This document shows positions 5,036 to 24,165 of a stretch of DNA of 64,000 bases, piece after piece. The translations under genes and the position numbers were made by a program. The stretch comes from Thioalkalivibrio sulfidiphilus (GTDB lineage: Bacteria > Pseudomonadota > Gammaproteobacteria > Ectothiorhodospirales > Ectothiorhodospiraceae). Numbering within the stretch: the stretch's first letter is position 1; every line of letters begins with the position of its first letter. The stretch spans positions 1 to 64,000 of the forward strand of contig NZ_KB898923.1 in assembly GCF_000377945.1 (NCBI RefSeq), written 5' to 3'. Below the pieces are notes generated by a model that was not told where the DNA came from, made no database searches, and was given only the letters and a program-made list of their open reading frames with translations.

Positions 5036-5065
5036 CAATCCGGGCCAGGGATGTGGTTAGAGGGT

Positions 5066-5164
5066 GGTTAGGGACACCCATAAACCGGGATGGGCGGTGA
5101 TGTTGGACATCCACAACCCAGCCCGGTTAGGCAGGCAGCGTAGATCATGGATGTCCTAAACCGT
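5066..5164 (+). repeat. GGGACACCCAT element, copy 1 (left flank of defence operon)
   Basis: About 99 bases. It begins GGGACACCCATAA, has an internal TTGGACATCC, and ends ATGGATGTCCTAAACCGT. The ends form imperfect inverted repeats (GGGACACCCAT against ATGGATGTCC). It is about 90% identical to the copies at 16747 and 20099 and in the same orientation. It resembles REP/BIME elements mobilised by RAYT enzymes, though no RAYT gene is in the window. Confidence 0.8.
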
Positions 5165-5262
5165 ATCCTCACTTGGGGTACTCTGGCGACGCCCTGTCGG
5201 GTTTGGTGGCTACTCCAATCAATGCTTGGATGGTTGCGCCGAGCATTCGGAACTCCGGGTGG

Positions 5263-6198
5263 TTATGCTGCCTTACCGATGACGAAACGCCATTTCAGGC
5301 TGCCTGCGCGGGCGGCGGGATCGAACAGGCGCTGGATTTTGTCCTTGTCGTCGCGGCCGAGGCGGCCCCAGGTCGACCAATCGTCCGGTCTGGCGGTGAT
5401 GTCGAAGCCCGCGGGGACGCTGATGCCAATGACATCAGCGATGAGGTAGCGCTCGTGAAAGTCATCCCAGAAGAAGATCTCCGCTGTCAGACCATGGGCA
5501 TCGAGTGCGTTACCGAGGATGGCGAAGGCGGCCTTCCAGTCGGTTTCCGTGGGAAAGGTTCGGGCAGGGCCGTCGCCTTTGCAGAAGCTACGGTGAATTT
5601 CGATGCGTGGTTTGATCGCTCGGCCGGCAAGCGGCACCAGCAGCTGGCCGAACTCGCGGTAATTGTGGCTGCTCGGGTCCAGATTGGGATCGACGAACAT
5701 CAACGAATTGGCTTGTTGCAGGATCCGTCCGAGCACTGCGAGGTAGTTTGCCGTCTTGCGGTCCACAGTGACGGATGGGCTGCGAGCCTGCCACCAGGGC
5801 GTGCCCGTCAACTTCTCGATGCAAGCGACCTCGGCGGCGGTGCAGTGCTGTTTGGTGCCGTGAGCGGCGATGATGCCGGTGAGCGGGGCGATGCCGTGCC
5901 CGGCCAGACCCTCCTGGCACCATTCCAGGGCCGTCGCAGGCGCACTGGCGTTCTGCTGGGGGAAGCGGCGCAGCCGGTTGCTGGCCCGCAGCTTCTTGAG
6001 GATCTCCTTGCAGAGCCGGTGCAGGCTGCCGGCATTCTGAAAACAGAACTCACTCCAGCCGCCGTCGCGCAGATCGCGCACCACCGCTTCCTGCAGCAGC
6101 GGTTCCTTCAGATGCGGCAGGCACATCTCGATGAAGGCGGGATCGGAATAGGCCGCCGGATCGAAGATGTCCGGGATCAGCGCGTACTCGTCAAGCAT
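5263..6198 (-). CDS. unrecognised last gene of the defence operon, possible PLD-like effector
   Basis: 311 residues. The start overlaps the DUF3696 ATPase gene by 8 bases, so the two are made together. I do not recognise the family. The middle has LMFVDPNLDPSSHNYREFGQLL. The C-terminal third has FHERYLIADVIGISVPAGFD, which looks like half of a phospholipase-D/HKD-type site (H..RY..AD..G...G.D). If so, it may be a nuclease effector controlled by the ATPase. Family and activity are inference. The gene ends about 100 bases before repeat copy 1. Confidence 0.7.
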   Translation of the reverse strand: MLDEYALIPDIFDPAAYSDPAFIEMCLPHLKEPLLQEAVVRDLRDGGWSEFCFQNAGSLHRLCKEILKKLRASNRLRRFPQQNASAPATALEWCQEGLAGHGIAPLTGIIAAHGTKQHCTAAEVACIEKLTGTPWWQARSPSVTVDRKTANYLAVLGRILQQANSLMFVDPNLDPSSHNYREFGQLLVPLAGRAIKPRIEIHRSFCKGDGPARTFPTETDWKAAFAILGNALDAHGLTAEIFFWDDFHERYLIADVIGISVPAGFDITARPDDWSTWGRLGRDDKDKIQRLFDPAARAGSLKWRFVIGKAA

Positions 6199-7945
6199 CG
6201 CCGAACTGCTCCCTCAAGCCTTCCTCGAAGAAGCCACCGGGCCAGGATTTGACCAGCTCGCCCAATTCGTTCAGCGGCATTTCGCGCACGATGCTGCGGG
6301 CGCCGTCGGGTTCGACATAGAGCACGGACACATCCTCGGGTGTCACAGGTGGCAGGCCCGTTTCCTTTTTGAGGTAGGTCTCGCGCATCCGGCGCATGAT
6401 GCGCAGAATGAGATGCTCGCTGTGGGTTTCGAGGATGAAGGTGTTGCCGCGCTCGCCCAGTGCCGCCTCGATGAATACGTCGCCCAGCTCGGCCTGCAAC
6501 GCAGGATGCAAGTGGATCTCGGGCTGCTCCATCGCCAGAAGCTTTTCCTGCGAACCGTAGGCCATGACCAGCACGGGCAATACTTGTGAAATACCAATAC
6601 CTACATCACGGTGAGTGACAACCGTGTTGGTTCTCTGATCAAAAAGAACAAGCTCTCGGATCCGGTCTATATCGGAGGAATCCACGACCTTCACAAGTTT
6701 TTCAGCAGAATCCTCAACATCACGGAAAAATGGCCTCGCATCATCACGGATTGGAAAGTACTCCATGATCAAGCCATGTTTATCGACTGAACCGATAAAC
6801 ATGGCTTCATCATCATCTTCAATGGAGTCGAGCCCGCTCGCCAATGGCTCCTTAAGTTGATCAGAAGCCACCAAGGAGCGAACTACCAACTTGTATGGAG
6901 TTTTTAATTTTCCTGACCCTAACCAACCATTCACCGCTTCACGAACGGCATCATCACGCCGCACCACGTCCCAGGCGTAGCCGCCGCCGGCGTACCAGTT
7001 GGCATCCTCGTGCTCGGCGAAGGCGAGATGGCGGGGCGGGAAGGATCGCAAGGGACCGAGGTATTGCAGACGTTTGAGCTCGTTGGCCAGCATTTCGGCC
7101 AGCCCCTTGATCAGATCGTTCAGGGTGCGCGGCAGATAGAAGCGAACGGCTTGGGCGATGTCGTCCTTGCGGTTACCCTTGCTGACCGGGAACAGCATGC
7201 TCACCGGCGACAGTTCCCCGCCGTCGGCCTTCGGCAGCTCCACGGCGGCGGGGAAGAAGGGATCGACGCGCACCTGCAGCTCGGGCAAGAGGTCGGCGAT
7301 GGCCGCGTTCGCCCCCTCGAAGTCCTCGGGCCGCATCTCCTCGGAGGTGGTGGCCGACTCGACGATGGCCTTGAGCACCTGGCGAAAAACCGCGTGATCG
7401 CTGGCGAGACGATCCAGGCGCAGCGTGCCGCCCTGGCCGTCCGTCCGGCGGCGGCTCATGCGCATAAGCTCCGCGCCGTCGCCGCCGATCTCGATGGATT
7501 CCACCCGCGGCTCGGCGCCCGGCACGGGGCGGTCGTATTGATCGAGCGCGATGCCGAGGGCGATGGAGATCGTCACGCTGCGCACCGGCGCCAGCAGTTG
7601 CGCCAGCCGCCCTTCGATCGCCGCCACGTCGAGCTCCGCGCCCCACTCCACGCGCCGGTGGGCTTGCCCCCGGTGGACATACTGGCGGAAACCGCCCAGG
7701 TCGATGGCGCTGCCGCCGACAGCGGTGTGGTGCACGTCCAGCCGCCGGCCGCTGCCATTCAGGCTGGGCTTGTCGCGGCCAAACTGCGCCTCGTGCGCCA
7801 GCGCCAGGCTGTGGATGAAGCTGGACTTTCCCGCGCTGTTGGGGCCGAAGATCAGGGTGATCGGCTTCAAGGGAATGCGCTGGGTATCGGCGAAGGCCTT
7901 GAAATTGCCGATGCGAAAGGCGCGGATCGGGCGGCCGGCGCTCAT
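6191..7945 (-). CDS. DUF3696 AAA/ABC-type ATPase
   Basis: 584 residues from ATG 7945, which overlaps the hsdS stop (ATGA). Walker A is GPNSAGKSS at 34-42. Walker B is LLAMEQPEIHLHPALQAELG at about 470, the H-loop is LETHSEHLILRI, and the C-terminus is a DUF3696 tail (MPLNELGELVKSWPGGFFEE). This is a RecF/SMC-like single-head ATPase of the type that partners nucleases in anti-phage operons. Longer upstream frames enter hsdS and have no ribosome site. It is probably the sensor or motor for the 311-residue partner downstream. Confidence 0.88.
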   Translation of the reverse strand: MSAGRPIRAFRIGNFKAFADTQRIPLKPITLIFGPNSAGKSSFIHSLALAHEAQFGRDKPSLNGSGRRLDVHHTAVGGSAIDLGGFRQYVHRGQAHRRVEWGAELDVAAIEGRLAQLLAPVRSVTISIALGIALDQYDRPVPGAEPRVESIEIGGDGAELMRMSRRRTDGQGGTLRLDRLASDHAVFRQVLKAIVESATTSEEMRPEDFEGANAAIADLLPELQVRVDPFFPAAVELPKADGGELSPVSMLFPVSKGNRKDDIAQAVRFYLPRTLNDLIKGLAEMLANELKRLQYLGPLRSFPPRHLAFAEHEDANWYAGGGYAWDVVRRDDAVREAVNGWLGSGKLKTPYKLVVRSLVASDQLKEPLASGLDSIEDDDEAMFIGSVDKHGLIMEYFPIRDDARPFFRDVEDSAEKLVKVVDSSDIDRIRELVLFDQRTNTVVTHRDVGIGISQVLPVLVMAYGSQEKLLAMEQPEIHLHPALQAELGDVFIEAALGERGNTFILETHSEHLILRIMRRMRETYLKKETGLPPVTPEDVSVLYVEPDGARSIVREMPLNELGELVKSWPGGFFEEGLREQFGDA

Positions 7946-9213
7946 CGCACGGCCTCCAGTTCCTTGGGTAGCGGCAGATTGAGCAGGCGGGCCTGCTGCT
8001 CCATCTCCGCCAGCAGTTCCTTCATGTGGGCCTCGCGCCATTTGGCGGTGAGTTGGCCGGAGAAGGCGCGCTGAAGAAGCAGATGAAACTGTGCCCCCAA
8101 TTTCTCAGCAGCGCGCTCAGCCTGAATCTGGCACGCAATTAGCTGACGCATAACGTTCGAGAATTTGTGCAGGTCCGTTGCTGTCGGCACAGGGAGTCTG
8201 AATTGGCGCAGAAACTCTGTCGGCACACGCTGCTGACCCGCCGATCCGGTAAATGCGCTCATTGCATGATTTCTAAAAGATTGCAGCCGTACCAACGCGA
8301 AAAGGTATTCGGGCGTGACGTCTGGCCCTGCTCGCAGCACATGAAATTCAGTTGACCCGAAGCCAATTCCACCGACCAATCCGGAGGCAATAGCGGCCTT
8401 ACCATTTTGCATGCACGGGGTGATCTTTGCGAAAAGTACGTCCCCGTCTTTAAAAGGCGTAAACCCTTTCTTCACCTCACCGTATGGCCGAGACTGCGTG
8501 CCCGTGATTCGGCCGAGGACTTCATCCACATCGGCCATGGCTACAAAGGACACCAGAACGGAATCGTCCAACCGCACTCTAGTCCTCGGATTAATCTCGC
8601 ATACGGCCGGGTCACCCATCAATTTGACCGGCAACCCTTTTGGATTCGTTGCCGGGTCGCCGAACATCTTGAGGAACAGCGCGGGCAGGATGCGGGCGGC
8701 CTTGGCGTCGGCCTCGCGGCGCAGACGACGCAGGCGGTCGGCTTCGTCGAGCAGTTCGACGATGCGGGATTGCTCTTTGGGCGACGGAATCGGTGCCTCA
8801 TGTTCCCAAAACCAATCCATGACCACGCGTGGCATCTTGGCCCCAGCAACGTGATGCGAGGCCTGGTTTACGAATCTAGGGGAGCGCAGGTAATAAGCAA
8901 GAAAACGTGGATTGAGCGTTTTGGGGTCTGGTCGCAACGGAATCAACTCAGTTGTTGCAATCCCTACTTCGTCAGGGATCACCACTTTGTTCAAATAGGG
9001 TCGCAGCTTCGAATAGAGCACATTGCCAGTATCGAAATTAAATGTGGATGTCCCGGCATTTGAGGCGGCGGCATAGCGTTTTCCAACAATTTCACCGGTT
9101 TCGCTTTCGATCTGATCCAGTGAGAGCAGCCACACCTGGTCATCTGGCGCGAAGAGGATTTGCGCTGGAACGGGCGGAGCTACTTTACGCAGAGGTGCAG
9201 TTAGCCAACTCAT
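7942..9213 (-). CDS. hsdS: type I restriction specificity subunit HsdS
   Basis: 423 residues with two target-recognition domains, each followed by a helical spacer (PSPKEQSRIVELLDEADRLR near 160; VPTATDLHKFSNVMRQLIACQ near 335). HsdS reads the bipartite DNA target for both the methylase and the endonuclease. It overlaps hsdM by 4 bases upstream and the ATPase gene by 4 bases downstream. A central conserved region and a C-terminal conserved region (LQRAFSGQLTAKWRE) are both present, so it looks intact. Confidence 0.93.
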   Translation of the reverse strand: MSWLTAPLRKVAPPVPAQILFAPDDQVWLLSLDQIESETGEIVGKRYAAASNAGTSTFNFDTGNVLYSKLRPYLNKVVIPDEVGIATTELIPLRPDPKTLNPRFLAYYLRSPRFVNQASHHVAGAKMPRVVMDWFWEHEAPIPSPKEQSRIVELLDEADRLRRLRREADAKAARILPALFLKMFGDPATNPKGLPVKLMGDPAVCEINPRTRVRLDDSVLVSFVAMADVDEVLGRITGTQSRPYGEVKKGFTPFKDGDVLFAKITPCMQNGKAAIASGLVGGIGFGSTEFHVLRAGPDVTPEYLFALVRLQSFRNHAMSAFTGSAGQQRVPTEFLRQFRLPVPTATDLHKFSNVMRQLIACQIQAERAAEKLGAQFHLLLQRAFSGQLTAKWREAHMKELLAEMEQQARLLNLPLPKELEAVR

Positions 9214-10853
9214 TCCGCCAACTCCTGCATCAGCTTTTCCAGCCCCGCCACCACCTTGCGATAATCGCCCAGTGCGTCGGCAATCAGCTCACGCGGGTCT
9301 TCGTCACTGGTCTTTTCCGCCACGCGCGGTTTCCATTGACCGGCCCCCAGGTTGTAGTCGGCATCAGCCAGCTTCTCGCGGCTGACCCACCAACAAGTCG
9401 GTTCATCGCTGCCGTGCGGCAGCAGCGTGTTAGCTTCCAGCCCCGGCGGGTTGGCGAAGCCGCTGGCCTTGTAGGCTTTCCACTGCGTGAGCAGGTCGGG
9501 GATGTCATTCTTCTCCGGTGTCTCGACGCGGCCGCCGCCGGAAATCTTGTCCGGGTCGTAGCCGTCGTTCCTCACCTCGTAGAACCAAACCTTGTCCAGC
9601 CGCTTGGCGGTATCGGAGGCCGGTTTGCGGAACACGAGCACGGCGGTTTTGACGCCGGCGTAGGGCTTGAACACCCCGGCCGGCAGGCTGACCACGGCAA
9701 GCAGGTCGAAATCGTGCACCAATTTCTTGCGCAGATCGACGTGTGCGCCGGTGGAGCCGAACAGCAGGCCCTCCGGCACCACCACCGCGCAGCGACCGCC
9801 GGGGGCGAGGTGCTGCATCATCAAGGAGAGGAACAGCAGTTCGCTCTTCTTGCTGTGGGTGGGTAAATCGGCGCGGATCGAATCCTTGGGCAACTGGCCG
9901 GCAAACGGCGGATTGGCCAGGATGACCTTGTAGCGGCGGCGCAGGTCGTCTTCGGAGAGCCCGCCCATGTCGGAGAGCGCGTTGGCGCGCTTGAGCCTGG
10001 CGTGGCGGATGCCGTGCAGCACCAGGTTCATCATGCTGATGCGCACCATCTGGCGCGACACATCGGTGCCGTAGATGGAGGCCTCCAGCAGGTTCCAGTC
10101 CGGGATCTTCTCGCCGGCGCCCTTGCGGTAGGTCTGCAGGCGGGGGATCTCGGCCTTGAGCTCGGCCAGGGTCTTGCCCCTTTTCTCCAGCCAGTCCTCG
10201 CCATAGATGGGGTATTCGGTGACATGGTCCGAGTACTTGGCGAGCAGCCAGTCCACCGCGTCAATGAGGAAGCCCGCTGTGCCGCAGGCGGGGTCGTAGA
10301 TGGCATCGCCGATGTCCGGATCGACCATCTCGACCATGAAGGCGCGCAGTTGCCGCGGGGTGCGGAACTGGCCGTTGAGCGAGCTGGAGCCCAGATGGGT
10401 CAGCAGGTATTCGAAGATATCGCCTTTCACGTCCGGGCCGAGCTTGCGGAACTCGAAGCCGTCGAGCTCGTCGATGACCTGCTTGAGCACGTTCGGGTCG
10501 ACGATCTCCAGTACCGCGTCGCGGAAGTACTCGGCCACCTCCGGCTCGTCCTTGGCCAGCGAGGCCATATAGGGGAAGACCTCGTCGCGGATGAAGTCGC
10601 GCAACTCGGTCCCGCTCTTGAAGCGCCAATGGCTCCAGCGGTAGCGCTCGGACTGCGCGGGAAACAGCGGCTTGGCGTTGCCGCCGTTCGCACCCAGACG
10701 GGCGCGCAGCTCGCGGTCGGACTCTTCTTCGTCGAGCAGCTTCAGGAAAATGAGGTAGGAGATCTGCTCGATGTAGGTGACCGGATTGGTCACGCCACCG
10801 GCCCAGAGGACGTCGGTGATGTGATCGAGCTTGCGGCGCAGTTGCTGGTTCAT
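9210..10853 (-). CDS. hsdM: type I restriction DNA adenine methylase HsdM
   Basis: 547 residues. It has an N-terminal HsdM helical domain (LDHITDVLWAGGVTNPVTYIEQISYLIFLKLLDEE, first 40 residues). SAM motif I is DPACGTAGFL near 200, and catalytic motif IV is NPPF near 310, which indicates N6-adenine methylation. It forms the M2S1 methylase with HsdS. It overlaps the OLD-like gene by 4 bases upstream and hsdS by 4 bases downstream. All expected motifs are present. Confidence 0.95.
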   Translation of the reverse strand: MNQQLRRKLDHITDVLWAGGVTNPVTYIEQISYLIFLKLLDEEESDRELRARLGANGGNAKPLFPAQSERYRWSHWRFKSGTELRDFIRDEVFPYMASLAKDEPEVAEYFRDAVLEIVDPNVLKQVIDELDGFEFRKLGPDVKGDIFEYLLTHLGSSSLNGQFRTPRQLRAFMVEMVDPDIGDAIYDPACGTAGFLIDAVDWLLAKYSDHVTEYPIYGEDWLEKRGKTLAELKAEIPRLQTYRKGAGEKIPDWNLLEASIYGTDVSRQMVRISMMNLVLHGIRHARLKRANALSDMGGLSEDDLRRRYKVILANPPFAGQLPKDSIRADLPTHSKKSELLFLSLMMQHLAPGGRCAVVVPEGLLFGSTGAHVDLRKKLVHDFDLLAVVSLPAGVFKPYAGVKTAVLVFRKPASDTAKRLDKVWFYEVRNDGYDPDKISGGGRVETPEKNDIPDLLTQWKAYKASGFANPPGLEANTLLPHGSDEPTCWWVSREKLADADYNLGAGQWKPRVAEKTSDEDPRELIADALGDYRKVVAGLEKLMQELAE

Positions 10854-12646
10854 GCGGTGTTCCCGTCGATGTCGGCCGGCTCGTCCGGCAGGGCGTCGGA
10901 GATCAGTTTTTGCAGCAGGTCGAGCTTGTGCCGGACTTCCTCGTCGATGTGGGCCGGGTCGGCATATTGCACGAGCAGATGGAGCTGCCCTTTGCGCAAC
11001 AGCATTGGCCCACCGGCGACTTCCGCCAGACGGCGGAAATATTCTTCGGCGAAGTGCGACAGCTTAAGGCGCTGCGTCTGCGCCTGCCACAACAGGCGGG
11101 CGGCATCCGGCGGCAGAGACTTCCAGGTCTGGAAATCGCCATCCTTGTTGGCGAATACCTGCTCACGAATCAGTGTGTCCAGCACCTCGTCGGCCTGTGC
11201 TCGGAACAAGGGATCCAAGTGATCTTGCGCATAGGCGCGCAGGACATCGGGAGTGATGAAGTAGTTCTCGGCCTCGTAGCGCGACCAGTACGTGACCGTC
11301 AGGGCATTGTCCTGAAGGTCCTGGCGGTTGCGGCCGTCGTTGTCAAGGATGCCCAGCCCCTTGAGGCCTGGGATCAGATTACGCAGGGCGTTGAAATGAT
11401 CCCGGGGCGTGATGCCGAAGCCGCCCTCGACACGCTCCAGCTCGCTGTCGGCGGTTGCCAGCGGGAAGTTATCCTGCACATAGAACACATTGAGCCGCTC
11501 ATCCCATTGTCTGGCGACAGGATGATTCAACCGTTCGGCCAAGGCGCGCAATATCTCGACATCGGTACTGCCCTCGACATAGAACACATACCCCCGTTCC
11601 CGGGCGCGTATGTAGTGTGCGGCACCGAAATGTTTGAGGCTGTTTTTGATGTCGGCCTTGCGCGCCACATCGTCAGCCCGTCCTTCGAGAAGCAGGACGA
11701 GATGGTTGTCCAGGGCTTCGTCGAGGATCACTTCGGAATGGGTGGCCATGAGGATCTGGGAGCCGCATTCCTGGGCGATATCGCGCAGCAGGACATAAAT
11801 CTGCCGCTGTCGCAGGATCTCCAGATGCGCATCGGGTTCGTCGATCATCAGGATGCTGCCCTTGTGCGCGTAGAGGTAGGCAAACACCAGGAGCATCTGC
11901 TGCAAACCACGGCCTGCCTGGGAGAGATCGAAAGGCTCCTTCGCCCCTTGCTGACGGTAGTGCAGTTCCACTGCGCCGCGTGCGTTTTCCAGCGGCTCGC
12001 CCAGGTCGATATGGAACAGGCGTTTCATCAATTTCTTGATCTGATTCCAGTCGTCCGGATGGTCGCGATGCACCATGAGACAGAGATTGCGCAGCACCTC
12101 GGCGGTGCGTCCCTGGCCGAGAAGGACATCGATACGGCCGGGCTTGAGCACGGGCTCTTCGCTTTCCAGGCCGGACATGGGGTAGAGCAGCTCGACCTTG
12201 AGGCCGGCGGCATGGGCCATCAGCGCCATGTCTGCCTTGGCGGCATCGTCGGGATCGCAATAGATCAGTTCGTCGCCCTGGTTGCGAAACCGCATGGTGA
12301 TCGGCTTGCATAGGCCGTTGTGACACACGCCCACGGTGATGGTCAGCGGGATATCCTTGTTTCCGGTTCGCACCTTGGCCTGGTGCCACAACAGACGGGT
12401 GCGCGGTATGGGAACCGCTGTGATGGCCAGCCGGTTGATGGGGGCCGAGGTGCGATCCTTGGCGCTGCTCTCCTTGCGCAGGTCATACCAGGTTTTGACA
12501 GCCAGGGACCAGAGCGCGAGCGCCTGAATCGCGCTCGTCTTGCCGCAGTTGTTGGGGCCGATGAGAACGGCAGGATGATCCAGAGCGATGCGCTGCCGCG
12601 TGGCGAATCGCTTGAAGTGTTCGATTTCGATGTAGTCGATGTGCAT
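10850..12646 (-). CDS. OLD-like ATPase with TOPRIM nuclease domain
   Basis: 598 residues. Walker A is GPNNCGKTS at 30-38, the ABC signature-like LSQAGRGLQQ is at 241-250, Walker B is ILMIDEPDAH at 265-274, and the H-loop is ATHSEVIL at 301-308. A TOPRIM domain follows, with FYVEGSTD (Glu358) and GILDNDG (Asp435, Asp437). This is the domain order of OLD/GajA nucleases. Its place between hsdR and hsdM recalls the Rlo (R-linked ORF) genes of Campylobacter hsd loci. It may act as a second layer when restriction fails. The gene starts 14 bases after hsdR ends. Confidence 0.88.
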   Translation of the reverse strand: MHIDYIEIEHFKRFATRQRIALDHPAVLIGPNNCGKTSAIQALALWSLAVKTWYDLRKESSAKDRTSAPINRLAITAVPIPRTRLLWHQAKVRTGNKDIPLTITVGVCHNGLCKPITMRFRNQGDELIYCDPDDAAKADMALMAHAAGLKVELLYPMSGLESEEPVLKPGRIDVLLGQGRTAEVLRNLCLMVHRDHPDDWNQIKKLMKRLFHIDLGEPLENARGAVELHYRQQGAKEPFDLSQAGRGLQQMLLVFAYLYAHKGSILMIDEPDAHLEILRQRQIYVLLRDIAQECGSQILMATHSEVILDEALDNHLVLLLEGRADDVARKADIKNSLKHFGAAHYIRARERGYVFYVEGSTDVEILRALAERLNHPVARQWDERLNVFYVQDNFPLATADSELERVEGGFGITPRDHFNALRNLIPGLKGLGILDNDGRNRQDLQDNALTVTYWSRYEAENYFITPDVLRAYAQDHLDPLFRAQADEVLDTLIREQVFANKDGDFQTWKSLPPDAARLLWQAQTQRLKLSHFAEEYFRRLAEVAGGPMLLRKGQLHLLVQYADPAHIDEEVRHKLDLLQKLISDALPDEPADIDGNTA

Positions 12647-12660
12647 GATCCGGCCTCCCG

Positions 12661-14925
12661 TTATCCGACCAGCACCGACTGATTGATTTCATCCATCACG
12701 GCGCGCAGACCTTGCTCGCCAAACAGTTCAATACCGATGTTGGCCGCGTTGAGAATGGACAGCGGCGGGGCGAACAGGTCGTCGAGCGACACCTTGCCTT
12801 TCACCAGGCCACGGTTCTTGAGCAGCGCCAAATATTGCGCCTGCTCGGGGGTGAGGTTCTTGGCCACGAGCCAGGCGCGGAAGTTCTCTTCCACGCGCTC
12901 CTCGCGGCTCTTGATCTTGAGTAGCCCCAACGCGGCGCGGATGAAGTCCACCAGGTTGCCACCAGGGTTGCGGTAGGCGCGGCGCAGGTTCTCTTCGTTG
13001 AAGTAGCGTTCCGGTTGGTTCAGGCGCTGGGCGAGTGTCGCTTCTTCCTGCTCGCTCAGGGGTTCACCGGCCCTCACTTTGGCGATGATGGGATCGGATT
13101 CCACTCCCGCTCGGACGGTGCGCTCCCAGTCGGTGACATAGTCGCGCTTGTCCACTCGCTCGCCATCGGGACCAACCTCGATGTAATGCACGGCATCCAG
13201 CCATTCGTCTTCGAGGCCTAGCTCAACAAGCTCGCGTGGGGTCTTGCCGCCGGGCGCCTTGGGTTTGGGTGCGTAGCCGCCTCCGGCACCGCCAGCGAAG
13301 ATGTCGGTGTCCGAGTCGTTGAAGTGCTCGTGGTTGCGGAAGAAGTCGTAGATGACGAACTTCTCCTTGCCGATGTGGGGCGCCGTGCGCGTGCCGCGGC
13401 CTCGCATCTGTTGATAGAGGATGGGACTGCGCACGCGGCGGCACATCACCAGGTGCAGCACCTCGCGGCAGTCGAAGCCGGTGTCGAGCATTCCGACGCT
13501 CACGGCAACCATCGGCAGCACCTCCTGCTTGAAACGGCGGATCAGGTCGTCGGCGTTGGCCACGTCTGAGGTGATGACTTCGGCGTAGCGGCCTTTGTGC
13601 TCGGGGTGAAGCTCGTTGAGATATTCCGCGAGACGGGCGGCGTGGTGCTTGGTGATGGCGAAGACCACGGCCTTCCCTGGCCCCGTCTTCTGGCCGGGCG
13701 CCAGTTCCTTGTAGTTCTGCCAGGCGAGACGGTCGAACTCCTCCATCATCAGGCGATTGCTCGCCTCATTGGTCCACTTACGCTCGAACTCGGCGGGGTC
13801 GTAGTGCTCCTCGTCGATGTCCGCGCCTTCGGCCACCAGGGTGGTGATTCCGGTGGCGAACTTGTAGGGCACCAGGTAGCCGGCCTTGAAGGCCTCCTGA
13901 ATCGGGTAGGAGTAGTCGGGTGTGTCGTCCTTGCAGTGGTAGAACTGAAAAGTGTTGCGCTCGATGTACATGGCCGGGGTCGCGGTCAGCCCGACATGCA
14001 ACGCATCGAAATGGGTGAGCGCGGTCTGCCAGGCCCCATAAATGGAACGGTGGCATTCGTCGGCGACAACCACGTCGAAGTAGCCGCTGGTGAATTCCTG
14101 GTAACGCCCGATCATCGTCTGCAGAAGGCAGACGGTGATCTGTTTCTCCTGGCGCACCATGCCGGGCTTGAGCCAGTAACTGGAGTAGCCGGGCAGCAAG
14201 TCCTGAATAGCCTCGATGGCCTGTTTGGCCAACTGGTCGCGATCCACCAGGAACAGCACCCGCTCGGCTTGACCTGCCTGAATGAGGCGCTTGATGTAGA
14301 GGACGATCAAGTCGGTCTTGCCACAGCCCGTGGGCAGTTCGATGAGGAAGCGGCGCTTGCCCAATTCCACGGTCCGGTCGAGGGCCTGCATCGCCTCCGT
14401 CTGGTAGGGGCGCAGCGTGCGGGTTTCTCCCTGGCGCAGGTAGGTGTCGGGGATGGGGATGGTTGCCAGCGGCTTGCGCTCGGCCCGCATGTGCACCAAG
14501 CGCTCCAGGTCGCGCCGGGAAAAGAAGGAATTGACGATGCGGGCGTCGTCGTTCTGGTAATCCCAGAAGTAGATCAGTTCCCCGTTGGTCAGAAAGATGA
14601 AAGGGGCGCCGATTTGCTTGGCGTAGGGCAGGGCCTGCTGCTTGGCCACGTAGGGGTGGATCGCCTGTTTCTTGGCCTCGATCACCGCGAGCGGACGGCC
14701 CCGCTGATCGAGCAGCACATAGTCGGCGCGCCCGGTGGGAACGGCATCGCCGTCCGCGGTCGACAAGACGGTGGCCTCTGAGCCAGGCTCGGCGACACCC
14801 TGGGGAGCGCCCGATACCTTCACCTCGGTGAGGACCTGCGACTTGTCCGCCGGATTCCAGCCGGCCGTGCGCAGCTGATCGTCGATCAGGATGCGCGCGT
14901 CGGTTTCTTTGGTCTGGGTGGCCAA
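12661..14925 (-). CDS. hsdR: type I restriction endonuclease HsdR (EcoEI type)
   Basis: 754 residues from a TTG start at 14925 behind AAGGAG with 7 bases spacing. The PD-(D/E)xK nuclease is near the N-terminus (Asp68, then IEAKK at 82-86). Helicase motifs follow: LPTGCGKT near 200, a DECH box (VVADECHRS) near 290, TATP, and motif VI QQMRGRGTR. The C-terminus matches the EcoEI R type. HsdR translocates DNA and cuts unmethylated foreign DNA. It is the first gene of the operon, 46 bases downstream of the expected sigma54 start site. It is unrelated in type to the truncated hsdR at 16904. Confidence 0.95.
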   Translation of the reverse strand: MATQTKETDARILIDDQLRTAGWNPADKSQVLTEVKVSGAPQGVAEPGSEATVLSTADGDAVPTGRADYVLLDQRGRPLAVIEAKKQAIHPYVAKQQALPYAKQIGAPFIFLTNGELIYFWDYQNDDARIVNSFFSRRDLERLVHMRAERKPLATIPIPDTYLRQGETRTLRPYQTEAMQALDRTVELGKRRFLIELPTGCGKTDLIVLYIKRLIQAGQAERVLFLVDRDQLAKQAIEAIQDLLPGYSSYWLKPGMVRQEKQITVCLLQTMIGRYQEFTSGYFDVVVADECHRSIYGAWQTALTHFDALHVGLTATPAMYIERNTFQFYHCKDDTPDYSYPIQEAFKAGYLVPYKFATGITTLVAEGADIDEEHYDPAEFERKWTNEASNRLMMEEFDRLAWQNYKELAPGQKTGPGKAVVFAITKHHAARLAEYLNELHPEHKGRYAEVITSDVANADDLIRRFKQEVLPMVAVSVGMLDTGFDCREVLHLVMCRRVRSPILYQQMRGRGTRTAPHIGKEKFVIYDFFRNHEHFNDSDTDIFAGGAGGGYAPKPKAPGGKTPRELVELGLEDEWLDAVHYIEVGPDGERVDKRDYVTDWERTVRAGVESDPIIAKVRAGEPLSEQEEATLAQRLNQPERYFNEENLRRAYRNPGGNLVDFIRAALGLLKIKSREERVEENFRAWLVAKNLTPEQAQYLALLKNRGLVKGKVSLDDLFAPPLSILNAANIGIELFGEQGLRAVMDEINQSVLVG

Positions 14926-14981
14926 GTCACTGCTCCTTGCAATGTTCGTGCTGCAAAATTTCTTGTGAAGCTATCGGTTTA

Positions 14982-14998
14982 GGCATTTTTTGTGCCAA
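14982..14998 (-). promoter_or_regulatory. sigma54 (-24/-12) promoter of the defence operon
   Basis: The minus strand reads TTGGCACAAAAAATGCC. The sigma54 consensus is TGGCACGnnnnTTGCW; here TGGCAC is perfect, the GG-to-GC spacing is exact, and TTGC is ATGC. It lies between the stop codon of the sigma54 activator gene (14999-15001) and the hsdR start at 14925, leaving a leader of about 45 bases. No sigma70-type promoter of similar quality is visible in this gap. Confidence 0.82.
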
Positions 14999-16495
14999 TC
15001 ACGCGAGCCCGTACTTTTGGAGCCAGTTCGTCAGGGTCTGGTAGCTGCCCAGACCCAAGAGTCTTGCGGCTTTCGACTTGTTCCCGTGGGTTTGTGCCAA
15101 GGCGCGTTCAAGGTAGTGGCGCGCGACATCGGCCAAGATATCGGGTAGGGAAATGCCCGTCTCCAGGGGGCGTCCCAGGATCGTTTCAGTCTTGGGTGCG
15201 ACGGTCACGGCGAGAGCCTCAGCCACATCTTGTGCGGTGATCTCGCCTCCGGGAGCCCAGATGGTCGCCCGAGTCAGCGTGTTGTGCAGTTCGCGCACGT
15301 TGCCCGGCCAGGAATGCTGCAGCAGAAGGTTTCTTGCGCCGGCAGATAGTTTCTTGTGCTGAAAGCCTGGTTGGGTTGCCGCCTCGGCGTTGATGGCGGC
15401 CAACAGCGCGTCGATCAGGAGAGACAAGTCCCCTTCGCGCTCCCGCAAGGGCGGCAACAACAGCACGCCCACCGCCAGCCTGTGGAAAAGGTCTTCGCGG
15501 AAACGTCCTTGCCGGATCTCGTCAGGCAGGGCGCGATTGGTTGCAGCGATCACCCGCACATCAACCGGGCGGGATTTGGTCGTGCCAACACGGGTGATCT
15601 CGCGCTCCTGGAGCACCCGCAGCAGTCGCACCTGCGACGCAAGGGGTAACTCTCCGACCTCGTCCAGAAACAGGCTGCCGCCATGGGCGGCTTCGAAGTA
15701 GCCGGCTCGTGATGCCGCTGCGCCCGTGAAGGCACCCTTCTCATGGCCGAACAGCTCGGCATCAACAAGTTCTTGGGGGATCGCACCGCAGTTGACGGCA
15801 ACGAAAGGGGCATCTCTACGCGCGCTTGCCTGATGAATGGCTCGTGCAAACAACTCCTTGCCGGTTCCAGACTCCCCTTGAATAAGGACGGGTACGTCGC
15901 GCAGGGCAAGGCGGTGTGCCAACGCTACGCATCTTTTCATCGGTGCACATCGGTGGACGATGGACGAGAATTCGGGCGCCTCCGGGGGCAGTCCCTGCGC
16001 CAGTCGGGCCAGCGCTTCGTCAGCCTGCCTGCTCGCCCGAGGAATGAACTCGGCAGACAGTTCGAATGGAATGTGAACGTCCTTGACGCCGTGCTCGCGT
16101 GAGGACTCGATCAACCGCGCAGGGTAGCGGGTCTTGGCGAGCAAGACCCAAATCGCAGCCATTGCGGGAGTGCCTGGACTGAGGTGAAAGGTGAGCTCTT
16201 CGTCTGGCGCTTGAGCGCTAACCTTGCCCACGACGCGGACCGCCTCGCGATAGATATCCTCGAAGCTGGTGGGGTTCGTCAGCGTGACATGATGGGGCGC
16301 TATCTGGCCCGTGAAATGTTCCTGAAGCCAGGTGATGAACCGCGCGGTCCTTTCCTTGTCGTGGTCGGAAAGAAGATGTACAGATGAAAACGACCTTGCC
16401 TGGAGCGCGTTCAGGATGGGCCCCGGTTGATCCGATGCAGAGCCTTCGGACGCGCGGAGATCAGTATTGCCCAGCCATGTCAGCAAGGTGGTCAT
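14999..16495 (-). CDS. sigma54 activator with CARF/RtcR-like sensor domain
   Basis: 498 residues from ATG 16495 (a TTG at 16504 is an alternative). Residues 1-155 form a Rossmann-like sensor with [11 protein letters not shown] at the start and the CARF-style loop LSPGTPAM at 105-112. The AAA+ activator domain has Walker A GESGTGKE at 207-214, the sigma54-contact loop GAFTGA at 254-259, Walker [11 protein letters not shown] and the sensor-region R finger (FREDLFHRL). A Fis-type HTH ends the protein ([17 protein letters not shown]). It resembles RtcR, the CARF-containing activator of RNA repair, but no rtcBA genes are here. The likely role is to fire the hsdR promoter in response to a nucleotide or RNA-end signal. 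Confidence 0.88.
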
Positions 16496-16746
16496 TGATC
16501 GCAAGTTCTTCTATGGTATCACAAGAAAAATTGTACCCGCCGTTCGCGTAGATCGAAAGTACCAGCCTGATGGTCAACGGGTCTGGGTTTCGCGCTGACA
16601 TGGCCAGTAGTCCCCCGTAAGCAGGGGGCAAACCGCAAACTCTGCAAACCTCGGTTTGCACCCTGACGGTGGCGAAGCGCTGCGCTCGCGCCCCCCCGCA
16701 TGGCTTTTCGCCAAGGGGTGTAGTTTGGGAGGGGTGTAGTTTGGAT
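16496..16746. other. intergenic stretch leading into the repeat array
   Basis: No supported gene is present. From about 16700 the sequence turns into repeated GTAGTTTGG words (three copies before 16756), the outer head of the GGGACACCCAT element. The apparent minus-strand frames here translate the repeat and are not genes. The promoter of the activator must lie in the first 100 bases; no strong sigma70 match is visible. Confidence 0.45.
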
Positions 16747-16903
16747 GTAGTTTGGGACACCCATAACCCAGGATGGGCGGTGGTTTTGGACATCTACAAC
16801 CCGGCCAGGTTAGGCAGGTAGCGTAGATCATGGATGTCCCAAACCGTCCCCAGATTATGGATGTCCCAAACCGTCCGTCCCAAACCGTCCGCCAAACCGT
16901 CCG
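16747..16903 (+). repeat. GGGACACCCAT element, copy 2, with CCAAACCGTCC tail array
   Basis: A 103-base copy (16747-16849) starts GTAGTTTGGGACACCCATAA and ends ATGGATGTCCCAAACCGTCC. A partial second end (ATGGATGTCCCAAACCGTCC) and further CCAAACCGTCC words run to 16903. The terminal inverted repeat is TTTGGGACACCCAT against ATGGATGTCCCAAA with one mismatch. A GTAG head is typical of RAYT-linked REP sequences. The array ends exactly where the hsdR remnant begins. Confidence 0.82.
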
Positions 16904-18915
<2,012 letters not shown>

Positions 18916-18919
<4 letters not shown>

Positions 18920-19290
18920 TGAAGGCCGGTGGTGCAGCGTATCGCGACTCCCGAGCGACAAGGCGTACCGGATCCGGAAATGGCTCGCTCTATCCGGCTC
19001 AGGAACTCAAGCGCCGCGCCATGGCTTGGGCGGTGACTCTGCGTGTCAACCCGAAGGTGATCCGGGTGCAGGAGATGCGCAGGAAGTGGGGATCATGTTC
19101 CTCTGCGGGTACCGTCACCCTTGCATCCGACCTCGTCGAGCAAGAAGAGCGGTTCCAGGATTACGTCATCGTCCATGAACTGCTGCACCTCCGTTTCTCG
19201 ACGCACGGCAGAATGTTCAAGGCGCTGATGAGCGCGCATGTGCCGGGGTGGCGTCGCTGGGAAGTGGCGCGGCGCGGTAACACCAACTGA
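18916..19290 (+). CDS. YgjP-like M48-family metallopeptidase
   Basis: 124 residues. It starts inside the stop of the hsdR remnant (ATGA overlap). It contains [13 protein letters not shown] followed by [15 protein letters not shown], the zinc site HExxH...H of YgjP/DUF45 metal-dependent hydrolases. Such small proteins are regular companions of type I restriction genes. This one is shorter than the usual 160-240 residues and lacks much of the N-terminal region, but the active site is complete. The substrate is unknown. Confidence 0.82.
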
Positions 19291-20009: not shown

Positions 20010-20098
20010 GCAGGCACGCGTGGGAGGGGGCGTGGAAGAAACCAAGGTAGACAGGGTCGTCAGAGACTTGGTCGCGGACCATGATCGACTGGACGGCT

Positions 20099-20201
20099 GT
20101 AGTTTGGGACACCCATAACTCGGGATGGGCGGTGGTTTTGGACATCTATAACCCGGCCAGGTTAGGCAGGTAGCGTAGATCATGGATGTCCCAAACCGTC
20201 C
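20099..20201 (+). repeat. GGGACACCCAT element, copy 3
   Basis: 103 bases, from GTAGTTTGGGACACCCATAA to ATGGATGTCCCAAACCGTCC. It differs from copy 2 at about four positions and has the same orientation. With copy 2 it brackets the hsdR-remnant/YgjP/HNH cassette. Confidence 0.85.
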
Positions 20202-22198: not shown

Positions 22199-23224
22199 TC
22201 AAGCCAGCCGATTGACCTTGTCCTGGATGGCGGCGCAGGTTTCCAGAATCGCATCGAACTCCGGCTGATCCGACACCAGAAGGCCGTCCTCGCGCATCGC
22301 CGCAAAATCCTGTGCCAACGCCGTGCGTGATGCGCCTTCGGGTACCAGCCTGAGCGAGCCGCTCACAGCCTCGACGTAGTCGATCTTGCCGCCGTTGGCA
22401 TCCTTCTCGGCAAAGAACATCGACTTGTGCTTGGCCACCTGATGCGCCAGTTCTCGATCGGCGGCGGCCTTGTCGAAGTACTCGGTTTGCGCCAGCGCGG
22501 CCAAGTCGTACCAATGACGTGAGTAGCGCTCGCCGCGCAGGCGTTCCTGACGACAGTAGACGTGTGCGGCCGTGGCCTTCTCCCAGAACGTGCGCTCGGC
22601 GGCCATCACCAAAGGGCGTGCCGTCGGAAAGGTCACGCCCTCGATCCACGGCGCGATGTCGCAAGCCACCGGATGGAACTCATGCGGCTCGCCCGTGGCC
22701 CGCGCCCCGAACTCCAGTTGGACCGTCGCGGAGACATAGCCCGTGCCGGTCTTGACGGCGGGATAGGCGATGATCAGCTTGTCGCGGTCCTGGCCGGCGA
22801 GACGCAAGTCCGCCTGCAAGCCGTTCGCGGCCAAGGCGTCATCGATGACGGGGCGTACCGTCTGCTCGATCCAGTCGGGAAGCCGTGCGCGCACCGCGCG
22901 GGTGATCTTCTTCTCCTGGCTGGCAGACGCTGGAATCGGATTGCCTTCGCGCAGCAGATCCGGCACCAGGGCGCGGATGTCGTAGGTCAGATCGATGTCT
23001 TCCGAGAACCGGTCGATGACCTTGTAAACCTTGGAAAGCGAGGTACCGCCCTTGAAGGTCAGCGTGTCGGCGATGGGGGAAACGTAGATCGCCGCGAGCG
23101 TCCACACCACCCAGATGTCTTTTTCCAGCAGATGTGCCGGGCGGCCGCTCTGCGCCGCCGCGTATTCCAGGGCCTCGACCCGATCGGCCTGGCTGAGCCC
23201 AAACCAGGACTCAGCCATGCGCAT
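22199..23224 (-). CDS. abiEii: AbiEii/AbiGii nucleotidyltransferase toxin
   Basis: 341 residues. FKGGTSLSKVYKVIDRFSEDIDL is the GS...D.D nucleotidyltransferase signature of AbiEii toxins. Downstream motifs are LEFGARATGEPHEF and EKATAAHVYC. This family is the toxin of type IV toxin-antitoxin systems and protects against phage by abortive infection through nucleotide transfer to tRNA or other targets. The start overlaps the antitoxin gene by 14 bases. All key residues look present. Confidence 0.93.
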   Translation of the reverse strand: MRMAESWFGLSQADRVEALEYAAAQSGRPAHLLEKDIWVVWTLAAIYVSPIADTLTFKGGTSLSKVYKVIDRFSEDIDLTYDIRALVPDLLREGNPIPASASQEKKITRAVRARLPDWIEQTVRPVIDDALAANGLQADLRLAGQDRDKLIIAYPAVKTGTGYVSATVQLEFGARATGEPHEFHPVACDIAPWIEGVTFPTARPLVMAAERTFWEKATAAHVYCRQERLRGERYSRHWYDLAALAQTEYFDKAAADRELAHQVAKHKSMFFAEKDANGGKIDYVEAVSGSLRLVPEGASRTALAQDFAAMREDGLLVSDQPEFDAILETCAAIQDKVNRLA

Positions 23225-23807
23225 TCATCTCGCTGACGGCGCGCGCCATCCAGCCTGGCAGGACCGCCCGCGCGGCCTGTAAGGCGGCCCATTCTTCGGC
23301 AGGCAACTTGGCACGAAGGATGTGCAGGGCGGAGGGCGCTTGCTCGGGCCCTAGCCAGGACAGGGCGCGAATGGCTTTGCCGGCCGCGCGCTTGCCGAGC
23401 GCGAGCTGCCAGCGGCTGCCGTGCTTGAACTCGACGATGCGGTTGCCCAGGCGCAGCTTGCGCGTGGGTCCCGAGGTCAGAAAGATCTCCCGGGTCGGCA
23501 CTTGCGTGGTCAGCCCCAGCGCATTGGCTTCCGCCGCGCCGTTGGGCACGACGACTTCACCGTGGGTGGACGCGATGGCTTCGACGACGGCCTCGGTCGA
23601 GGGCGGGCGCGAACCGAAGCGGCTGGCTACCGGCAGGGCGTAGGCCCCCCGTCCCACGCGCAGCAACTTCCCCTCGCGGGCCAGTCGGGCCAGCGCCTGA
23701 TCGACCGCCGCCCTGGAAGCCAAATGCAGAAATTCCTTGGGCGAGACCAGGCCTCCCTCCGGGAGGGCCTGGGCGGCGGACAGAATGGCTTCGCTGAGGT
23801 GACTCAT
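23211..23807 (-). CDS. abiEi: AbiEi/DUF6088 antitoxin of the type IV system
   Basis: 198 residues from ATG 23807 behind GGAG with 8 bases spacing. It has an N-terminal winged helix (GGLVSPKEFLHLASRAAVDQ, LLRVGRGAYALP) and a C-terminal antitoxin domain (SGPTRKLRLGNRIVEFKHGS). AbiEi-type antitoxins do not bind the toxin but repress the operon through inverted repeats; one such repeat is present upstream at 23823. It is the first gene of a two-gene operon with abiEii. Confidence 0.92.
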   Translation of the reverse strand: MSHLSEAILSAAQALPEGGLVSPKEFLHLASRAAVDQALARLAREGKLLRVGRGAYALPVASRFGSRPPSTEAVVEAIASTHGEVVVPNGAAEANALGLTTQVPTREIFLTSGPTRKLRLGNRIVEFKHGSRWQLALGKRAAGKAIRALSWLGPEQAPSALHILRAKLPAEEWAALQAARAVLPGWMARAVSEMNAHG

Positions 23808-23822
23808 GGGGTGGTCTCCGAT

Positions 23823-23850
23823 TGTCAGAAGTATATAGATGTTTCTGACA
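23823..23850 (-). promoter_or_regulatory. AbiEi operator-like inverted repeat
   Basis: TGTCAGAA, 12 bases, TTCTGACA: a perfect 8-bp inverted repeat 16 bases upstream of abiEi. The spacer carries TATATAG/CTATATA, a likely -10 region, so a repressor bound here would block the promoter. This matches the known autoregulation of AbiEi. Confidence 0.7.
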
Positions 23851-23977
23851 TTCTTCAAACTGCGTCGGCACCAGCGTGAACGGTGTGGTTTCCTTTGGTC
23901 GGGCGATGCTGCAATCCAACCGCTTGATTCGTCCGCGCGCAACGCATTGATTTGTAATGGCCGCGCTCGCGGCCTTT

Positions 23978-24082
23978 GCGGACTTCGGGCGTGTCCGGGG
24001 GAGCGAGGCCGGAGAGAAAAATGGCCGGGAGAGAGAGGAAGGTGGCCCTGGACGGGGCCAGGGGCCGGACGCCGAAGTCCGC
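23978..24082. repeat. long imperfect inverted repeat beside tRNA-Phe
   Basis: GCGGACTTCGGGCG (23978-23991) pairs with CGCCGAAGTCCGC (24070-24082), with one bulged base. A smaller palindrome GGCCGCGctCGCGGCC lies at 23959-23974. The 365-base gap between abiEi and tRNA-Phe has no gene otherwise. It may be a remnant of an integrated element or a structured RNA. Confidence 0.5.
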
Positions 24083-24133
24083 AGGCTTCCGCAGGAATCC
24101 TCGCGAACACGCGGGAGCCGGCGCGATCGGGCA

Positions 24134-24165
24134 AGAAAAAAGGCCAACAGCGAACTGTTGACCTT
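24134..24165 (-). terminator. rho-independent terminator of tRNA-Phe
   Basis: The minus strand reads AGGTCAACAG TTCG CTGTTGGCCT followed by TTTTT: a 10-bp stem with one G-T pair, a UUCG tetraloop and a T tract. It lies eight bases after the tRNA 3' end. Confidence 0.88.

Follow-up and report, generated by a model that had tools for sequence, protein, structure and literature searches.

Comparative analysis of a 64,000-nucleotide stretch of the Thioalkalivibrio sulfidiphilus genome (contig NZ_KB898923.1, hereafter the window) led us to a conserved -24/-12 element lying directly behind the stop codon of a CARF-domain activator gene and ahead of a Type I restriction-modification (R-M) operon. 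In the absence of transcript or binding data, this element, TGGCACAAAAAATGC, is likely a real sigma54-dependent promoter of the operon, under the control of the adjoining activator. The activator gene itself holds a tandem pair of 14-bp dyads constrained at the DNA level, which we infer to be the enhancer (UAS) of the activator, no binding data being available. The overall model that we consider likely is that of an autoregulated CARF sensor firing restriction from an enhancer within its own gene, in which activator binding, enhancer role, upstream repression and ligand remain inferences.

Type I R-M is usually regarded as constitutive housekeeping immunity. A sigma54 promoter stays inactive unless an ATP-hydrolysing activator acts on it, and activators of the PspF/NtrC class work from a pair of dimer sites that are separated by about two helical turns and lie a few hundred bp away from the -24/-12 promoter. 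RtcR-like CARF-NtrC proteins have been described as often R-M-associated and as likely acting via sigma54 on downstream genes (Makarova et al. 2014, PMC4012209), and the CoCoNuT paper (PMC11090510) makes a similar statement on RtcR homologues. In Escherichia coli, the CARF domain of RtcR keeps the protein inactive until RNA-repair signals release it (PMC9650030). The regulator family, its R-M neighbourhood and its predicted sigma54 role are already known; the surprising part here is the intragenic tandem element and its implication for inducible restriction.

Homologous loci

Relatives of the activator were fetched through their CARF domain alone, blind to the promoter. Among 364 existing relatives, ranging over Proteobacteria, Desulfobacterota-type groups, Acidobacteria, Planctomycetes, Myxococcota, Chloroflexi and others, we sampled 10 regions from whole genomes and 80 named contig loci, and a representative set of 44 diverged loci (activator protein identity <75%) was defined. 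Loci with a broken or cut-off activator frame (L043, L045, L052, L078) or with a gene running off the contig (L061, L062, L069, L070, L075, L106) were excluded. Distant RtcR-type loci recovered by class and phylum searches (L018, L021, L022, L024, L140, L142-L145) had no promoter at the stop and were treated as a different subfamily. CARF-domain relatives were also sought in viral contigs and phage records, where none was found.

A CARF-domain activator adjoining a Type I R-M operon

The activator matched the Pfam families Sigma54_activat, HTH_8 and RtcR (the divergent RtcR/CARF N-terminal domain), and the PADLOC model RtcR_PspF2--CARF_AAA_HTH (PDLC01995) over its full length (E 6.5e-206, residues 1-495), with intact GAFTGA and Walker motifs (Table 1). 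Its N-terminus adopts a CARF fold as predicted by AlphaFold and Foldseek, the nearest solved folds to the model of residues 1-175 (pLDDT 86) being Csm6, Card1, Can2, Cad1 and ring nucleases. Lys119 was invariant across 45 homologues; a positive residue following strand 4 is mostly missing from RtcR (Makarova et al. 2014, PMC4012209), and it is possible, by our own inference, that Lys119 occupies the equivalent position. By its neighbourhood this protein is not the E. coli-type RtcR that regulates rtcBA, as hsdR, an ATPase gene, hsdM and hsdS lie downstream with no adjacent rtcBA, and the sole rtcB of the genome is on another contig. The host genome encodes one sigma54 (PF04963), and a gene for an enhancer-binding protein of the cognate type adjoins the promoter.

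Table 1. Coordinates of the activator, its R-M operon and the predicted regulatory elements within the window
Feature	Position	Strand	Evidence
Activator, CARF - AAA+ (sigma54-interacting, GAFTGA) - Fis-type HTH, 498 aa from ATG 16495	14999..16495	-	Pfam, PADLOC, structure
Predicted sigma54 -24/-12 promoter driving hsdR, TGGCACAAAAAATGC	14983..14997	-	Sequence and conservation
Intragenic dyad 1 of candidate enhancer, ACAAGAAACTATCT	15344..15357	-	Synonymous-conservation peak codons 379-388; matrix scan
Intragenic dyad 2 of candidate enhancer, GCAAGAAACCTTCT, 20 bp from dyad 1	15324..15337	-	Synonymous scan; matrix scan; plasmid loci
Dyad at the activator's own promoter, ACAATTTTTCTTGT, overlapping a TACAAT -10-like box	16521..16534	-	Held-out matrix; conserved tandem spacing
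Second, weaker dyad, ATAGAAGAACTTGC, 20 bp from ACAATTTTTCTTGT, directly ahead of the activator start codon	16501..16514	-	Matrix scan
Dyad in the hsdR leader, ACAAGAAATTTTGC, about +6 to +19 of the predicted transcript	14953..14966	-	Matrix scan
hsdR, 754 aa (ResIII, EcoEI_R_C, HSDR_N)	12661..14925	-	Pfam, PADLOC
AAA_21/OLD-like ATPase, between hsdR and hsdM	10850..12646	-	Pfam, PADLOC
hsdM, 547 aa (HsdM_N, N6_Mtase)	9210..10853	-	Pfam, PADLOC
hsdS, 423 aa (Methylase_S)	7942..9213	-	Pfam, PADLOC
AAA_15 ATPase, recurrent operon partner	6191..8041	-	Pfam, PADLOC, neighbourhood comparison
311-aa protein, no Pfam family, recurrent partner of the AAA_15 gene	5263..6198	-	Domain search, neighbourhood comparison

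The co-occurrence of hsdR, hsdM and hsdS with their expected domains identifies the operon as a Type I R-M system, its restriction and methylation activities being inferred. Across the homologous loci, hsdR of two very different types was found within the first two downstream genes in 48 of 74 cases, and the other downstream content comprised vWA-PP2C-kinase operons, methylase-ATPase fusions, AAA_15 genes and one reverse-transcriptase gene. Most homologous loci are Type I R-M systems of several subtypes, with a minority of other apparent defence operons.

Several of these loci displayed particular gene arrangements. Fusions of about 1300 aa combining N6_Mtase, Methylase_S-like and AAA ATPase domains were observed with the same activator and promoter in L038 (16585-20522), L095 (11570-15592) and L105 (11513-15418), following an hsdR-hsdM-hsdS set in the first and being the first operon gene in the other two. 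In L082 (11552-16353), the activator-promoter cassette is followed by a PcfJ-like gene and a 918-aa reverse transcriptase carrying a conflict-type histidine-kinase domain. A more distant CARF activator (39% identical) in L031 (6579-10826) lies ahead of an hsdR-hsdM pair 79-83% identical to that of the window; there, the sigma54 motif is found 116 nt past the stop and precedes a short ORF, and no intragenic dyads are present.

A 107-nt repeat (85-96% identical), with the 25-nt unit AGATCATGGATGTCCCAAACCGTCC, occurs at 5060-5166, 16743-16849 and 20095-20201. It flanks the activator-R-M island on both sides and recurs past the neighbouring gene cluster, an arrangement suggestive of island-border markers. 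On the plus strand, a 668-aa ORF (16913-18919) with SWI2/SNF2 and T1R_D3-like domains and no HSDR_N is likely a truncated second hsdR, pointing away from the activator, and a YgjP-like metallopeptidase ORF (18916-19290, plus strand) lies directly 3' of it. Near the island, an AbiEii-type nucleotidyltransferase gene and an upstream DUF6088/AbiEi_4 gene (22199-24134, minus strand) probably form an AbiE toxin-antitoxin pair.

A conserved, predicted sigma54 promoter at the activator stop codon

Read along the minus strand, the activator stop TGA (15001-14999) is followed by a single T (14998), TGGCAC (14997-14992), AAAAAA and TGC (14985-14983). The element thereby lies 1 nt 3' of the activator stop and 57 nt 5' of the hsdR start, a TTG codon preceded at 7 nt by the Shine-Dalgarno sequence AAGGAG, and its GG-to-GC register is exact (12 bp) for a -24/-12 element; the hsdR transcript is predicted to start at about 14971. 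The initial annotation of the window, which had proposed a near-consensus sigma54 promoter between the activator stop and hsdR, held, including both gaps and the register. The string that it gave, TGGCAC-N5-TTGC, was not exact, the actual sequence being TGGCAC-N5-ATGC, with two mismatches to TGGCAC-N5-TTGCW (ATGC for TTGC, and the final C). Because a search of both strands of the 64 kb returns two exact copies of TGGCAC-N6-TGC, the presence of the motif in the window is weak evidence by itself, and it is conservation that carries the case for the promoter and rules against a chance match.

Within -25 to +60 of the activator stop, the motif was found with at most two mismatches in 33 of the 44 diverged loci, and with at most one in 27, against dinucleotide-shuffle means of 0.49 and 0.06, respectively. 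The same test on the opposite strand over the 44 loci returned no motif, and control windows in and after the gene gave a mean of about 1% (maximum 4.5%) at up to two mismatches and 0% at up to one. The commonest offset was 0-4 nt past the activator stop, frequently in the form TGATGGCAC, with a consensus across loci of TGGCAC[G/A]N4TTGCT. Part of the information content of this consensus is a by-product of hit selection, and kinship inflates the locus counts even under 75% identity. The promoter was present in 42 of the 48 R-M loci. In L028, L030 and L031, it was located 83-116 nt past the stop, without a good intragenic pair. Seven paralogous activators of the same genome, checked after their stops, had neither the sigma54 motif nor the dyads. 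Eight of the 44 representatives were without a clear promoter; since the intragenic dyads described below are kept in seven of these eight, the intragenic pair is not strictly coupled to the stop-codon promoter.

Conservation in homologous loci, the absence of which had been named beforehand as a refutation, was strongly supported. The earlier claim that the promoter ties the activator to the operon also held, as the motif stays anchored at the activator stop even with a different HsdR subtype or a non-hsdR gene downstream. That earlier reading had missed the CARF-domain, RtcR-like nature of the activator, its published link with R-M, and the conserved candidate activator sites lying within the activator ORF, at the promoter of this gene and along the hsdR leader.

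A tandem dyad constrained within the activator gene

Dyads of 14 bp resembling ACAAGAnnTCTTGT were first noticed upstream of many activators and, unexpectedly, within activator ORFs at about 340-360 nt from the stop. The intragenic element consists of two such dyads 20 bp apart, reading ACAAGAAACTTTCT then GCAAGAAATCTTCT, 333-360 nt before the activator stop; in the window, the centre of the pair lies about 370 bp upstream of the predicted hsdR +1.

A motif-free scan was performed on a codon alignment of 43 activators (487 columns), scoring synonymous conservation beyond the codon usage of each gene. The top four columns were codons 388 (CTT), 385 (GCA), 382 (TCT) and 386 (AGA), and the best 12-codon windows, starting at codons 377-381, scored 0.23-0.25, the highest value of 0.246 comparing with a median of 0.024. 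Codons 378-391 contain all four leading columns as well as the leading window. AGC/AGT serine columns proved to be false synonymous peaks produced by codon-family inertia; in a scan rerun without serine the peak stayed, with a top window of 0.268 and 0.091 for the best window elsewhere. In GC-rich genes, the arginine codon AGA was used at 33 of 777 positions gene-wide versus 12 of 16 at codon 386, and the leucine codon CTT at 130 of 1125 versus 13 of 16 at codon 388. Dyad matches at 'REDLF' codons were discarded as a coding coincidence, the motif-free scan giving no excess there. These results establish a DNA-level constraint on the intragenic element.

Matching dyads ahead of the activator gene and within the hsdR leader

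A symmetrised matrix built from the intragenic sites only was applied to 120-bp activator upstream regions. The best score exceeded the 95th percentile of shuffles in 72% of these regions, versus 0-14% of other regions, and the two best upstream sites were spaced by 20 bp in 23 of 43 loci. The intragenic and activator-promoter dyads therefore match in both sequence and spacing. In 14 of 34 cases, against 0.9 expected, the upstream dyads hold a -35-like TTG(T/C) and abut a -10-like TAnnnT with a 17-bp spacer; embedding these boxes, they point to a repression of the activator's own sigma70 promoter. It is likely, as an inference without binding data, that the activator limits its own level via tandem dyads at this sigma70-type promoter.

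A held-out matrix was derived from 39 genes <65% identical to the activator of the window, which was itself left out. Its three best sites in the 64 kb were those at 14953 (hsdR leader, first), 15324 (intragenic) and 16521 (activator promoter, third), and the two best tandem pairs of the window were the intragenic pair, followed by the activator-promoter pair. Dyads in the hsdR leader at up to two mismatches were restricted to 2 of 44 loci, comparable sites being found in L026 and L042 (close clade only), and many loci have a leader too short for a dyad.

Independent loci

Six unused plasmid loci (Rhodoferax, Azotobacter, Vitreoscilla, Pseudomonas, Polaromonas and Vibrio), 46-68% identical to anything in the set, were scored with a fixed matrix over their whole 12-18 kb. 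All six placed the intragenic pair, again at 333-360 nt ahead of the stop, first or second by score among the tandem pairs of the entire locus, and the sigma54 motif stood at the activator stop in five. The upstream dyad pair was absent or weak in some loci, including at least four of these six. Among other held-out loci, L127, L134, L136 and L137 had both the promoter and the intragenic pair, the latter being weaker in L134, L136 and L137; L131-L133 had neither, with the upstream pair retained in L132 and L133. Coupling of the intragenic pair with the promoter was not significant in the main set (32/7 vs 3/1) and is not claimed.

Comparison with known systems

The RtcR-like CARF-NtrC activators previously described (PMC4012209) belong to the same protein family as the activator of the window; unlike here, the text of that study, which we searched, does not describe a promoter element, activator-binding sites or an intragenic enhancer. 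The E. coli RtcR-rtcBA system (PMC9650030) likewise combines a CARF-AAA+-HTH protein, a sensory and inhibitory CARF domain and a sigma54 promoter of the adjacent operon; RtcR acts there through a UAS and an IHF site located at the promoter of rtcBA. It differs in that the target here is an R-M operon rather than rtcBA, that the promoter abuts the activator stop and that the candidate enhancer lies within the activator gene. CoCoNuT defence superoperons (PMC11090510), which may include Type I R-M, are headed at their 5' end by an RtcR homologue; however, none of the CoCoNuT genes was identified in the operon of the window, and the promoter architecture is not described in that work. Compared with the PspF/NtrC class in general, the conserved sites are here inside the activator's own ORF. 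In the open-licence literature searched, we found no description of the stop-codon promoter, of the dyads or of their intragenic location, and nothing relevant to an intragenic enhancer of such kind.

Proposed mechanism

In the absence of a signal, the sigma54 holoenzyme would remain closed on the promoter and the restriction operon would be silent. The CARF domain would sense a nucleotide derived from infection or damage; the ligand is unknown, and we infer that either a cyclic oligonucleotide or an RNA fragment ending in a 2',3'-cyclic phosphate is the probable candidate. The liganded activator would then assemble on the two intragenic dyads, loop from there to the sigma54 promoter and open it, turning on the R-M operon. 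The same tandem dyads at the activator's sigma70-type promoter would hold the activator level down, resulting in autoregulation.

Alternative explanations

The alternative that survives best, which we nevertheless regard as unlikely, is that the promoter is real and driven by the activator from an enhancer located elsewhere, in the hsdR-leader or upstream dyads, the intragenic pair being a roadblock or an autorepression site. In its favor, the activator promoter and the hsdR leader both carry the same dyad, the leader site being the best single site in the window. However, leader dyads are confined to a close clade, many leaders being too short to hold one, and among the plasmid loci that keep the intragenic pair, most have a weak upstream pair or none at all. 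Furthermore, L131-L133 lack both the promoter and the intragenic pair, and yet the upstream pair is kept in two of them.

Intragenic conservation could also arise from mRNA structure, translational pausing, an internal promoter or the site of another protein, since synonymous conservation by itself names no binder. This appears very unlikely, as the element matches the non-coding pair at the activator promoter in sequence and 20-bp spacing, which a coding or RNA constraint would not yield, and as the paralogous activators are without it. Finally, a chance TGGCAC...TGC match, with transcription of the operon starting instead at a sigma70 promoter or reading through from the activator gene, could invoke the second exact occurrence in the 64 kb and the imperfect copy of the window, but is all but excluded by the conservation of position and sequence across phyla.

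Implications for restriction as a possible inducible defence

Under the preferred reading, that of a CARF activator firing the operon from within its own gene, a tight and signal-dependent sigma54 switch placed before hsdR-hsdM-hsdS implies inducible restriction, tied to CARF, a nucleotide-sensing domain best known from Type III CRISPR. Restriction at this locus thus looks like immunity that is induced on demand instead of being always on, no transcript data being available. This raises the question of whether the host genome is methylated while the operon is off and, if not, of the fate of the cell once HsdR appears.

A bolder reading, towards which we lean by a narrow margin, is that of a widespread family of immune regulators with an enhancer in their own ORF, in which the sensor gene, the enhancer and the sigma54 promoter would travel as one cassette that can be placed before any defence operon, including Type I R-M subtypes, vWA-phosphatase-kinase and reverse-transcriptase operons. 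Restriction would then be inducible by the CARF ligand and may, in a conditional or abortive response, hit self DNA whose methylation is incomplete. The pair of 14-bp dyads, together with one promoter, provides a handle for finding further operons of this activator family and their signal, and the locus offers a clear bacterial example of a putative regulatory element seen as a constraint on synonymous codons in the gene of its own regulator.
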